A stretch of DNA of 42,528 bases, taken from positions 1-42,528 of the forward strand of contig JAJZZI010000120.1 of the NCBI GenBank assembly GCA_021797635.1, given 5' to 3'. This stretch comes from Bacillota bacterium. Its GTDB lineage: Bacteria; Bacillota; Sulfobacillia; Sulfobacillales; Sulfobacillaceae. The notes under the pieces were generated by a model. The model saw nothing but the letters and a program-made list of their open reading frames with translations. It made no database searches and was not told the DNA's origin. Positions 38,361 to 42,528 of the stretch are shown one piece after another. Position 1 is the stretch's first letter; each line of letters opens with the position of its first letter. A program made the position numbers and the translations under genes.

Positions 38361-38413
38361 GCGCAACTTTTCGTCAAGGTCTGCGTATGGATGTGCCAAA
38401 AGGGGGATCGACC

Positions 38414-40225
38414 ATGTGCGGCATTGTTGGTTATATCGGCGATCAAGATGCGTTGCCCATCTTAATGAGGGGGCTCAAGCGCTTGGAATATCGGGGATAT
38501 GACTCCGCTGGCGTGGCCTTGATAGCTTCAGGGCAGGTGGCGACGGCGAAGTCTCCGGGCAAAGTGGCGATGCTGGAGACGCGTTTGGATCTACTGCCTG
38601 CTGGGTCCCCCTGTGGCATAGCCCATACCCGTTGGGCGACGCACGGGGCGCCCACGGATGAGAACGCCCACCCGCACGTCGACTGCAGGGGCAAGATTGC
38701 CGTCGTGCATAACGGCATCGTGGAAAACTACGTAGAGCTTCGAGCGGAATTGGCCGCCAAGGGCCATCGCTTTGTCTCTGAGACCGATAGCGAAGTCATT
38801 CCGCATCTGTTAGAGGAGTATGGCGCCACGGACGACTTGCTATCCGCCGCGCGTCAAACGGAAACACGGCTGGACGGAGCCTATGCGTTTCTGGCCGTCG
38901 TTGCCGACCGGCCCGACGTGGTCGTGGCGGTGCGACGGGCGAGTCCTTTAATCATTGGTCTGGCCCATCGAGCCAACTATATTGCCTCAGATTTCAGCGC
39001 TTTTTTGGATGCAACCAATCGGGCGCTGGTGCTGGAAAACGGGGACATGGCGGCAGTCACCGCCGATGATGTGACCATTTTTGATAGCACGGGCGCCGAA
39101 ATTGAGCGAGAACCGATGACGGTTAATTGGGATGTGCGCCAAGCCGAACGAGGTGGCTACTCCCACTTTATGCTGAAGGAAATCATGGAACAGCCAGAAG
39201 CCTGGGCCGATTGCCTGTTAGGCCGGATTCAAAATCAGTCCATTGAAGTCGAGGCGATGGGGCTTCGCACGTCCGAACTCACGCGCTGGCAAAGGGTCCA
39301 AATTGTGGCAGCGGGCACGGCCTATCATGCCGGTCTGGTAGGTAAGGTCCTTTTGGAAAACTTGGCGGGCATCCCCGTGGACGTGGATGTGGCCTCAGAA
39401 TTTCGCTATCGACGCCCGCTTTTGACGCCCGACACTTTGGTGTTGGCCGTCTCTCAGTCAGGGGAAACGGCCGATACCTTAGCCTCTTTGCACCTCGCCC
39501 GGGAACGGGGGGTTTATACCTACGCCATCACGAACTCGGTGGGGTCGACGCTGGCGCGCGACGCCGATGCGGCCGGCTATACGTATGCAGGTCCTGAAAT
39601 TGCCGTGGCATCAACCAAGGCGTATACCACTCAAATCCTCATGATCAGCCTGTTAGCACTCGCCCTGGCCCAAGCGAGAAATCGTGCGAGACCAGACTTG
39701 GTGGCTCAACTGGGGCTCTTGCCGGCGCTGGGTGAAGCGTGGTTGGCTCAGTCGGACAGCGTGCGCGATTACTCGGAACTTTTAGCAGCCTCCAACCAAA
39801 TGTTTTACATTGGACGCGGAATGGATTATGCCTTGGCGATGGAAGGCCAACTCAAAATGAAAGAGATTAGCTACATTCATGCGGAAGCGTATCCTGCCGG
39901 CGAGATGAAACACGGTACTCTCGCCCTGATTACGGAAGACGTTCCGGTAGTCGCGGTCTCGACGCAACCCGATTTAGCGGTCAAACTGCGTTCTAATGTG
40001 GAAGAGGTGAAGGCCCGGGGTGCCAAGGTGTTTGCCGTCATCGATCAGTCGCAGCGTAGTGCTTGGGGCCAAGATGCCATGGCGGAGGTGCATCCTCCTT
40101 CGCCTTGGTTGTCGCCTGTCTTGGCCGCCATGCCGCTTCAGTTGCTGGCCTACTGGACGGCGGTTGCTCGCGGCGAAGACGTTGATAAGCCAAGGAACCT
40201 GGCCAAGAGTGTTACCGTGGAGTAA
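38414..40225 (+). CDS. glmS: Glutamine-fructose-6-phosphate aminotransferase
   Basis: A 603-residue enzyme making glucosamine-6-phosphate from fructose-6-phosphate and glutamine. Cys2 (MCGIVGYIG) becomes the N-terminal nucleophile of the glutaminase domain (to about 240), with THGAPTDENAHPH typical; two SIS isomerase domains follow (SQSGETADTLASL) and the C-terminus ends DKPRNLAKSVTVE. ATG 38414 is fixed by the required Cys and by AAAGGGGG. The 53-bp gap to glmM is too short for a glmS ribozyme. The 3' end of this gene is the classical Tn7 target sequence, and a Tn7-like end begins 24 bp past the stop. Confidence 0.97.
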   Translation: MCGIVGYIGDQDALPILMRGLKRLEYRGYDSAGVALIASGQVATAKSPGKVAMLETRLDLLPAGSPCGIAHTRWATHGAPTDENAHPHVDCRGKIAVVHNGIVENYVELRAELAAKGHRFVSETDSEVIPHLLEEYGATDDLLSAARQTETRLDGAYAFLAVVADRPDVVVAVRRASPLIIGLAHRANYIASDFSAFLDATNRALVLENGDMAAVTADDVTIFDSTGAEIEREPMTVNWDVRQAERGGYSHFMLKEIMEQPEAWADCLLGRIQNQSIEVEAMGLRTSELTRWQRVQIVAAGTAYHAGLVGKVLLENLAGIPVDVDVASEFRYRRPLLTPDTLVLAVSQSGETADTLASLHLARERGVYTYAITNSVGSTLARDADAAGYTYAGPEIAVASTKAYTTQILMISLLALALAQARNRARPDLVAQLGLLPALGEAWLAQSDSVRDYSELLAASNQMFYIGRGMDYALAMEGQLKMKEISYIHAEAYPAGEMKHGTLALITEDVPVVAVSTQPDLAVKLRSNVEEVKARGAKVFAVIDQSQRSAWGQDAMAEVHPPSPWLSPVLAAMPLQLLAYWTAVARGEDVDKPRNLAKSVTVE

Positions 40226-40249
40226 ATCATGATGGGCGGATGGCGGTGT
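40175..40249 (+). other. attTn7-like attachment region
   Basis: The last codons of glmS (encoding the conserved DKPRNLAKSVTVE) and 24 bp beyond the stop precede the transposon terminus. In Tn7, TnsD reads this part of glmS and directs insertion about 25 bp downstream. If the terminus is TGT at 40250, the 5-bp target duplication would be GGTGT (40245-40249); the second copy lies outside the window. Confidence 0.65.
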
Positions 40250-40250
40250 T

Positions 40251-40320
40251 GTTCAGTGACAAAAATTACGTTAACTGAACAATAATTATCTTAACTGGAC
40301 AAAAAATAGCTTGACTGTAG
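40251..40320 (+). repeat. Tandem 20-bp TnsB-site-like repeats at the transposon end
   Basis: Three direct repeats start at 40251, 40271 and 40291 with exact 20-bp periodicity; the second and third share TTAACTG-ACAA-AA and all three share ACAA-AA--A at the same phase. A fourth, degenerate start (TTGACTGTAG) is at 40311. Clustered TnsB sites at the termini are a hallmark of Tn7-like elements. Confidence 0.75.
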
Positions 40321-40332
40321 TGGGAAAACATG

Positions 40333-40375
40333 GCACAGTTGAAACAAGTGTTTTGGGTGTTTCAACTGTGCTTTT
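40333..40375 (+). terminator. Intrinsic terminator between transposon end and tnsA
   Basis: GCACAGTTGAAACA (40333-40346) pairs perfectly over 14 bp with TGTTTCAACTGTGC (40358-40371), loop 11 nt, followed by TTTTG. It lies after glmS and before tnsA, so it probably stops glmS transcription at the edge of the element. On the minus strand a TGTTTTCCC tail follows, so it may work both ways. Confidence 0.75.
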
Positions 40376-40410
40376 GTTATATGTGGTTGGTTGGAGAAAA
40401 GGAGACCTCT

Positions 40411-41244
40411 ATGGCCAAACGCAAACGCGAGAATACATCCGACACCGTTGATCGGCGTGTAAAAGAAGGCCGGGGCATCGGGCGTGGAGTGGATTATAAG
40501 CCGTGGCTTTTGGTGCAAGATGTTCCATCCCAAGGTTTGGCCAGTCGTGTCAAGGGGGTAAAAACCGGTCGGGTTCATCATCTTCTGAGTCAATTGGAAC
40601 ATCGATGTTTTTTGATTCTGGATTGGTCGGAACGGGTTACCGATATTCGCGAGCAGTATCCGCTTTTGCCGCTCGAAGAAACCTTTGCTTTAGCGGAATC
40701 TTTGGGAATCAAACATCCACGGGATCCTAAAACCCAAAATCCTATCGTGCTTACATCGGACTTTCTTATTACGGTCAAACAAGGGGATACACTCGCCGAA
40801 CAAGTTCTCAGCATCAAGCCTTCTAACGATCTAAGTAATTCACGTGTATTGGAAAAGCTCGAACTTGAGCGCCAATATTGGGAAAAACGCAAGGTTCCTT
40901 GGCATATTGTGACTGAGCAGGATCTGCCGGCAACTCTTGTCAAGAACTTGGAATGGCTCTACCCCTATCGCTTTTCTAATGTGCTGAGCCCCTTAACTGA
41001 TTCAGAGATCTATCGGGTGCGCAGGGGACTGGAGCAGGAACTTCTTAGGTGCGAACCCCTTTCCACTACCGCGAATGCCGTAGATGACCGATTGGGTCTA
41101 GAACCTGGGACAAGCCTTTCGGTGACTCGTTATCTACTCGCCACACGCACATGGCGTGTAAACTTGCTCGATCCCATCCATTTGGTAGAACCGTTGGTGT
41201 TGCTACACCATGTGGTCCCGGAATCGGAGGTGGATGTTTCGTGA
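40411..41244 (+). CDS. tnsA: Tn7-like transposase subunit TnsA (endonuclease)
   Basis: A 277-residue PD-(D/E)XK endonuclease that cuts the 5' ends of the transposon, enabling cut-and-paste movement together with TnsB. Catalytic residues appear as Glu63 (SQLEHRCF), Asp117 (LTSDFLI) and Lys136 (LSIKPS); RVTDIREQYPL is a family hallmark. The C-terminal part (about 170-277) is the helical domain that contacts TnsC in Tn7. The frame is open from ATG 40330, but that start lies in the terminator hairpin; ATG 40411 has AAAAGGAG (40397-40404) 6 nt upstream. The stop overlaps the tnsB GTG. Confidence 0.92.
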   Translation: MAKRKRENTSDTVDRRVKEGRGIGRGVDYKPWLLVQDVPSQGLASRVKGVKTGRVHHLLSQLEHRCFLILDWSERVTDIREQYPLLPLEETFALAESLGIKHPRDPKTQNPIVLTSDFLITVKQGDTLAEQVLSIKPSNDLSNSRVLEKLELERQYWEKRKVPWHIVTEQDLPATLVKNLEWLYPYRFSNVLSPLTDSEIYRVRRGLEQELLRCEPLSTTANAVDDRLGLEPGTSLSVTRYLLATRTWRVNLLDPIHLVEPLVLLHHVVPESEVDVS

Positions 41245-42528
41245 ACTGGATGGTCAACCAAGTCATCGAATGGCTGGATGAGAACGGGGATCCGGTAACG
41301 GAACGTCTGCTGTGGATTGCTCCCACCTATACCGATGCGTACCTTTTTGACCTCCGGGATCCCCAGGCGATGCCGGTTTGGCGGCGCATTCAGGATTTGG
41401 AGGGTGCCATCAATCAGGGAATAGTCCGTGTGTTATCCGTAGACCCGTATCTTATTGGTATGCGTCCGGAGGATACCCTTTCGGATAGGCAACGACGTCA
41501 ACGCGATCAAGCCTGGGGCGTGATCCAGCCGCTTGTACAACGGGACGGTGAAGAAGCTATTTTTCAGGCTAAGACCCGAGGGATCTTGATTAACGACGCG
41601 ATTGAGCGCACGGGGATCAGTAAACCCACCATCTACAATTACCTTCGTAAATATTGGCGCGGAGGGCAAACCAAGAATGCCTTGGTACCGGATTTTGATC
41701 GCCGTGGAGGCCGTGGAAAGACAAAGAGTTCAGGAGAACGCAAACGAGGACGGCCAGCGCGGCGTACACGGACCATGACAAGTGACGCGGGTATCAATGT
41801 TGATGACATGGTTCGTGAAAAATTTCGACGGGGAATCCGCTTGTTTTATGAAACAGGCAAAGAACGGTCGTTTACCGAGGCGTATCAACTCATGCTGGAG
41901 CGTTTATTTCATCAGGGATATGAACAACACGGTGAGACGCTTGTTCCTAAGTTACCGCCTGCCACGGAACTGCCGACCTTAAGGCAATTTCGCTATTGGT
42001 ACGAAAAGGAACGGGACTGGGAAACTTCCCAAAAGCGGCGTCTGGGTGAACGACGATACGCCTTAAGCCGACGGCCTATCACGGGGGATTCTACCCAGAT
42101 GGCTCAAGGTCCTGGGTCTCTATATCAGATCGATGCCACCATCGCCGACGTGTATTTGGTGAGCCGCTGGGATCGTAACCGCGTAATCGGTCGACCCGTG
42201 GTGTATATGGTGGAAGACGTTTTTAGCCGCATGATTGTCGGACTGTCGGTTGCTCTGGAAGGTCCAAGTTGGTTAGGCGCAATGTTGGCATTGGAGAATG
42301 CGGCGAGTGACAAAACGGGATTTTGCGCCCAATTTGGGATGGAGGATACCACCTGGTGGCCGGCGCAACACCTGCCGGAAGCCATCTTGGCGGACCGGGG
42401 TGAACTGGAGGGCTACAACGCCGACCAATTGGTCAATGCGTTGGCCATTCGGGTGTCTAACACTCCACCCTACCGGGGGGATCTAAAAGCCATTATCGAG
42501 CAAAACTTCCGGTTGATGAATCTCAACC
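41241..42528 (+). CDS. tnsB: Tn7-like transposase subunit TnsB (DDE transposase), truncated by window edge
   Basis: 429 codons are visible. GTG 41241 follows GGAGGTGG (41226-41233) and overlaps the tnsA TGA, so the two are coupled but not fused. N-terminal DNA-binding helices include DAIERTGISKPTIYNYLRKY (118-137); a basic linker with an AT-hook-like RGRP is at 169-172. The DDE catalytic triad is Asp298 (YQIDATIADV), Asp385 (ILADRGE) and Glu420 (AIIEQNF); the 34-residue D-to-E gap is canonical for this superfamily. It joins the transposon 3' ends to target DNA. No stop or frameshift is seen up to the edge. Confidence 0.92.
   Translation, partial: MNWMVNQVIEWLDENGDPVTERLLWIAPTYTDAYLFDLRDPQAMPVWRRIQDLEGAINQGIVRVLSVDPYLIGMRPEDTLSDRQRRQRDQAWGVIQPLVQRDGEEAIFQAKTRGILINDAIERTGISKPTIYNYLRKYWRGGQTKNALVPDFDRRGGRGKTKSSGERKRGRPARRTRTMTSDAGINVDDMVREKFRRGIRLFYETGKERSFTEAYQLMLERLFHQGYEQHGETLVPKLPPATELPTLRQFRYWYEKERDWETSQKRRLGERRYALSRRPITGDSTQMAQGPGSLYQIDATIADVYLVSRWDRNRVIGRPVVYMVEDVFSRMIVGLSVALEGPSWLGAMLALENAASDKTGFCAQFGMEDTTWWPAQHLPEAILADRGELEGYNADQLVNALAIRVSNTPPYRGDLKAIIEQNFRLMNLN

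Follow-up and report, generated by a model that had tools for sequence, protein, structure and literature searches.

Three short repeats that abut at the start of a mobile element in a Sulfobacillaceae genome raise the question of which branch of the Tn7-like transposons this element belongs to. The window, i.e. the whole stretch of 42,528 nucleotides analysed, is one entire contig (G000:C156). The initial annotation had left the branch uncertain, as the terminus appeared closer to the ends of CRISPR-associated transposons (CASTs) than to that of Tn7. The locus is, with a probability of about 95%, the right end of a Tn7-family transposon in a Sulfobacillaceae host, located at attTn7 just downstream of glmS. 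Evidence is provided by the repeats, the terminus, the position and the homology of TnsA and TnsB in the window, and by the both-end architecture and two 5-bp duplications in its relatives.

The repeat array and its position downstream of glmS

The genes, terminus, units and leader features of the window are on the forward strand. The element begins with the terminal octamer TGTTCAGT at positions 40250 to 40257; the letters at 40250 read TGTTCAGTGACAAA, as originally given. The octamer is followed by three 20-bp units at 40258–40277 (unit 1), 40278–40297 (unit 2) and 40298–40317 (unit 3), and the spacing between TGT and the first unit is that of most related arrays (see below). The start-to-start distances are exactly 20 and 20 with no gaps, confirming the 20-bp steps noted at the outset. 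The pairwise identity of the three 20-mers, summed, is 47/60, which is the top value for a 3 × 20 tandem in the whole window. This value was never reached in shuffled DNA, the maxima being 36 (2000 shuffles of the local 600 bp), 37 (2000 shuffles of DNA of array composition) and 35 (60 whole-window shuffles).

A site matrix made from the seven TnsB sites of Tn7 only, read from the E. coli record L022, was applied to both strands of the window. The three best matches, ranked 1, 2 and 3, were units 1, 2 and 3 with scores of 16.5, 13.9 and 12.6, respectively, which supports the earlier description of the repeats as TnsB-site-like. The single scores are unremarkable, given that the best score in 40 shuffled windows averages 13.8 and rises up to 18.9; what is remarkable is the joint in-register placing of the three matches. 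The units are predicted TnsB sites, binding being expected from Tn7. At a helical repeat of 10.5 bp per turn, 20 bp correspond to 1.9 turns, with an offset of ~34 degrees between successive sites. Hence, the suggestion that sites about two turns apart would place TnsB on one face of the DNA holds approximately, the face being common only roughly.

The element starts 24 bp past the stop codon of the host gene glmS (38387–40225; 612 aa; Pfam SIS and GATase), the 3' end of which is the Tn7 attachment determinant. The final 45 nt of this gene are identical to the E. coli glmS end at 32/45 positions. The corresponding gap is 25 bp in Tn7 and 23 bp in each of the relatives G016 and G010, and the window thus shows the insertion ~25 bp downstream of glmS that is typical of Tn7-type elements. 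The pentamer GGTGT at 40245–40249 is a candidate target duplication by analogy with the relatives G023 and G010; it is present in a single copy, the distal copy being unassembled.

On the other side of the array, a ribosome-binding-like AAAGGAG (40398–40404) lies ahead of tnsA (40411–41244; 277 aa; Pfam TnsA N and C domains), whose product is 40% identical to Tn7 TnsA over 251 aa. A longer tnsA ORF from 40330 was judged an artefact, as it would start just before the leader hairpin (see below) and cross it. The next gene, tnsB (41241–42528), was assigned by homology; the contig breaks off within it, leaving its first 429 codons. Its product has all three catalytic motifs of Tn7 TnsB, namely IDATIAD, LADRGEL and AIIEQNF, which we take to carry the DDE residues.

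Tn7 is described, in the relevant parts of two reports, as having close TnsB sites at the right end and spaced sites at the left (PMC11406308; PMC13370975). The window has abutting sites behind a TGT terminus, and the array accordingly reads as a textbook Tn7 right end. Binding, cleavage and control of orientation would follow the Tn7 model. Binding of TnsB to the three adjoining 20-bp units would be cooperative, and their tight spacing would mark the right end, the left end having three spaced sites. TnsB would then cut the 3' strand at TGT and TnsA the 5' strand, and TnsD would direct joining 23–25 bp past the glmS stop.

Affiliation of TnsB and the terminal octamer

In a comparison with solved structures, the window TnsB gave 235 bits with Tn7 TnsB, 37 with that of I-F3 Tn6677 and 18 with that of type V-K; the full-length TnsB of G023 gave 347, 57 and 33 bits, respectively. 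A quick tree was computed from 88 catalytic cores over 142 columns, with SH-aLRT as the only support measure and CAST rows partial; rows L034, L045 and L074, which have broken frames, had been dropped beforehand. In this tree, a branch of length 1.98 (support 100) separates the V-K, I-F3 and TniA rows from the 83 of Tn7 type, among them the window. The four Sulfobacillaceae rows cluster with support of 96, and many branches among the 83 Tn7-type rows are unresolved. The TnsB phylogeny called for by the initial annotation thus places the window inside the Tn7-type rows. An I-F3 affiliation was rejected on the TnsB score and the tree placement, and a V-K affiliation on the same two grounds; to our knowledge, type V-K CASTs have no TnsA, which is present in the window. 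The presence of both a TnsA endonuclease and a DDE TnsB is what would be expected of the Tn7 clade. As judged from the sequence, the element belongs with Tn7 rather than with the CRISPR-guided transposons, a placing supported by the TnsB bits, the tree and the TnsA identity.

The alternative is that the array is the end of a CAST, either V-K-like as indicated by the terminus or of type I-B, which shares the TnsB branch of Tn7. This is very unlikely. The V-K version draws on the outer 14 letters of the window, 13 of which are shared with the presumed ShCAST end (terminus TGTnCAGTGACAAA), compared with 8/14 for Tn7R and 9/14 for Tn7L. The presumed end is backed in part by a match of 92.7% over its first 41 nt on a cyanobacterial plasmid. 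Further inwards the order is reversed, the first 20-bp unit agreeing with Tn7R at 14/20, with Tn7L at 13/20 and with the presumed ShCAST end at 11/20 positions. Therefore, the claim that the terminus is more CAST-like than Tn7-like stands for the outer 14 letters, whereas the 20-bp unit, TnsB, which is far from V-K, and TnsA are all nearer to Tn7. Among 32 related arrays (see below), agreement with the 14 letters of the presumed ShCAST end ranges from 4 to 12, and the window tops this continuum. The termini of sister elements are TGTTCGGT, TGTTGAGA, TGTTGCAC, TGTTGAAC and TGTTTGAG. Since the octamer varies among sister elements, it is labile, and its CAST-like form is no lineage marker.

The I-B version draws on the shared TnsB branch. 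In a published classification, one TnsB clade contains both Tn7 and an I-B CAST, V-K and Tn5053 share a different one, and I-F belongs to a fourth (PMC8649781). A Tn7-branch TnsB is likewise found in the cyanobacterial type I-B loci L056, L064, L067, L068 and L073, of which L056 and L073 show 19–20-bp steps. Hence, 20-bp phasing is no discriminator between Tn7 and type I-B CASTs. These five loci differ from the complete relatives of the window in having CRISPR arrays, found by a simple detector, and I-B cas families among their 27 proteins scanned, and they occupy another part of the tree. In the complete relatives G016 and G023 and in G002, the same detector found no CRISPR array. Of the 83 ORFs of G023, G016 and G002, 44 were scanned, each of them from G023 or G016, and the matches listed for these include no cas families. 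An I-B affiliation was rejected for the relatives on this basis.

Ends, duplications and gene content of related elements

Window-type TnsB was found in 6 of 61 genomes, comprising the window's own genome, which is one of the six, and 60 relatives. The elements of G023 and G002 do not adjoin glmS. The complete element of G023 (S. thermotolerans Kr1) spans 129117–160653 (31,537 bp), and that of G016 has 38,440 bp. Perfect 5-bp duplications are CAAAA in G023 and GTTAT in G010; the flanks ATGGT and CTGGT of G016 differ at one base and are not a perfect duplication. Distal-end units start at +9, +76 and +131 in G023, G016 and G010, as compared with +9, +73 and +129 in Tn7L; the middle unit of G010 is a weak one, positioned by eye at the offset common to the relatives. 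A distal end lacking related repeats had been named as an outcome that would speak against a Tn7-like end, and in the relatives the distal end was found to carry three spaced units.

The same data bear on the alternative that the repeats serve tnsA as promoter or regulatory elements instead of being end sites. They do lie just upstream of tnsA, and there is one promoter-like match at 40256–40283. However, one match is not significant where 0.3 are expected, the same units recur at distal ends far from tnsA, and the outermost unit in the relatives lies 8 bp from the terminus defined by the duplication. A regulatory role in place of an end function is scarcely credible.

For the window element itself, the distal end was searched for in the assembly and not found. 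The genome of the window, which is 96% complete in 241 contigs, gave no protein match to tnsC, tnsD or tnsE. These absences, an octamer unlike the TGTGGGCG of Tn7 and the wrecked state of the nearest relative, G010, speak against the Tn7 right-end reading in its full form, and the window copy may be incompletely assembled or the remnant of an element. A dead remnant with a real array, kept only through its proximity to glmS, would be compatible with Tn7-right-end identity and is a serious contender, at somewhat less than even odds. It would account for the unmatched genes and has a parallel in G010, where the element has an internal deletion, a broken tnsA, a truncated tnsE and a tnsB joined to what is left of tnsD; a relic of a window-type end is also found beyond the G016 element. 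On the other hand, the window carries an intact tnsA and, over the 429 codons assembled, an intact tnsB with all three catalytic motifs, and the contig simply ends in tnsB, so the missing genes may be unassembled.

Traces of further elements were observed in three relatives. In G010 (L124:1300–1420 and L014:3248–3320), contig C28 carries the distal end, then GTTAT and directly after it another near end, which has three units. The same GTTAT flanks the first near end, which lies on contig C79. The arrangement is read from the sequence as tandem Tn7-type elements at attTn7. Past the distal terminus in G016 (L112:725–860) there is a degenerate window-type near end in which the hairpin and a broken tnsA start persist and the repeats are gone; this marks an earlier element at that att site. 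Another decayed element is seen on the small contig L015 of G014, where a distal end accompanies a tnsA cut at the contig edge, a disrupted start of tnsB and a tnsC fragment of 104 aa.

TnsA, TnsB, TnsC and a TnsD with TniQ are present in G016. TnsD of G023 matches Tn7 TnsD, and G002 carries homologues of the TnsABCD set. The next gene encodes a 527-aa protein with no Pfam match. In a profile comparison with Tn7-type TnsE (hhalign), this protein gave a probability of 97.9 and an E-value of 3.7e-13, one of the seven rows of the profile being a TnsD (L053) by mistake. An iterated profile started without the TnsD row reaches Tn7 TnsE at 9.6e-34 and has members in 29 of 80 TnsB-related loci. Thus, with the TnsABCD set and a divergent TnsE homologue, the complete relatives are tnsABCDE elements. 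The divergent TnsE is missed by the Pfam TnsE_C model at L012:10412–11992 (reverse strand), L011:8476–10059, L037:15750–17372 and further loci. The 29 loci span Bacillota, cyanobacteria, Acidobacteriota and Pseudomonadota; tnsE is described as restricted in the part of a report that deals with it (PMC10293859).

The 31.5-kb element of G023 (L017:7117 to L012:18654) combines Tn7 genes with metal-related cargo. Among the matches listed for 44 proteins of G023 and G016, at least two are to rusticyanin and at least one is to a copper P-type ATPase. A plasmid-like region including a Tn7 has been described for S. thermotolerans Kr1 in the section of a report devoted to it (PMC6803676), and part of this 'plasmid' cargo may be Tn7 cargo.

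Variation of the right end and the leader hairpin

Searching genome contigs with a TnsB alignment gave 459 relatives, from which 80 loci were retained. The site matrix applied to these combined sites of Tn7 and of Sulfobacillaceae, an array being accepted if it scored above all 320 Markov nulls. Arrays of at least two units upstream of tnsB were found in 32 of the 80 loci, including L032, L033 and L036, which match by construction because Sulfobacillaceae sites went into the matrix. The other 48 gave no array that exceeded the nulls; some of them are cut by contig ends and others have matrix-unlike sites or none. The steps within the 32 arrays are 20 bp in 64 of 67 cases, with one of 19 and two of 21, and the arrays have two (9 loci), three (11 loci) or four units (12 loci). 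TGT lies exactly 8 bp ahead of the first unit in 25 of the 32. Arrays of ~20-bp repeats are given as a general mark of Tn7-like elements in the pertinent part of PMC8649781.

Tn7 itself (E. coli, L022 = NZ_CP033762.1) is likewise located at attTn7 beside glmS. It shares with the window an 8-bp terminus followed by abutting ~20-bp units at the tnsA-proximal end, and with the relatives of the window the three spaced distal units and, where complete, the order tnsABCDE. The right end of Tn7 consists of TGTGGGCG, units stepping 20, 21 and 20 bp, a hairpin with TTTTGTTAT, and tnsA, and that of the window of TGTTCAGT, units stepping 20 and 20 bp, a hairpin with TTTTGTTAT, and tnsA. Hence, the two differ in the octamer, in the number of units (three in the window, four in Tn7) and in the single 21-bp step of Tn7. 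In addition, Tn7 TnsB is 32% identical to that of G016, and the TnsE of the relatives is too diverged for the Pfam model. The nearest TnsB proteins outside Sulfobacillaceae (~48–54%) belong to cyanobacterial Tn7-type elements (Stenomitos, Tildeniella and Anabaena among L035–L043, and Tolypothrix plasmid L019). Several of these have four 20-bp units, and TnsC and TnsD are present, but the units are of the GCAAATAAAGT type and the hosts are different. The window end is an ordinary, nicely preserved Tn7-family example with a standard right end, and it extends the classic end grammar of Tn7, with its 8-bp terminus, 20-bp right steps and spaced left end, to acidophilic Bacillota.

Between the array and tnsA, a perfect 14-bp hairpin followed by TTTTGTTAT forms a terminator-like feature at 40333–40371. 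The folding z value is −5.5 in the window, −4.3 in Tn7 and −8.1 in G016. Over six Sulfobacillaceae-type rows and Tn7, 94.7% of cells pair, as compared with 27–43% in slid versions. Three of the 14 pairs are changed on both sides, in rows that are few and related and with the structure drawn from the window, and 85 of 500 shuffles give as many changed pairs, taken by themselves. Hairpins with stems of 10 or more are commoner in the loci (10 of 32) than in shuffles (29 of 480), three of the ten being close Sulfobacillaceae relatives. Hairpins of any stem are no commoner than in shuffles (11/32 loci versus 137/480, ~29%), by a detector that misses the Tn7 hairpin itself. A terminator tool gave no call on the 14-bp hairpin, whose loop exceeds the limit of the tool. 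Literature searches brought up no description of a hairpin or terminator at this end of Tn7, nor anything relevant on a Tn7 right end with four TnsB sites. The hairpin could be an insulating terminator against read-through from glmS, and it offers material on how tns expression is insulated from this gene.

Natural right ends of two, three and four units offer material on how many TnsB sites are needed. A speculative extension, which we regard as doubtful, is that the array is a reducible counter and not a fixed structure, and that the covarying hairpin is a conserved insulator or attenuator that blocks glmS read-through onto the transposase, with another sequence in Tn7. The right end of S. 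thermotolerans Kr1 (L012:18607–18654) equals the G016 end (L011:1786–1853) minus exactly one 20-bp unit, and the Kr1 element is flanked by its perfect duplication.
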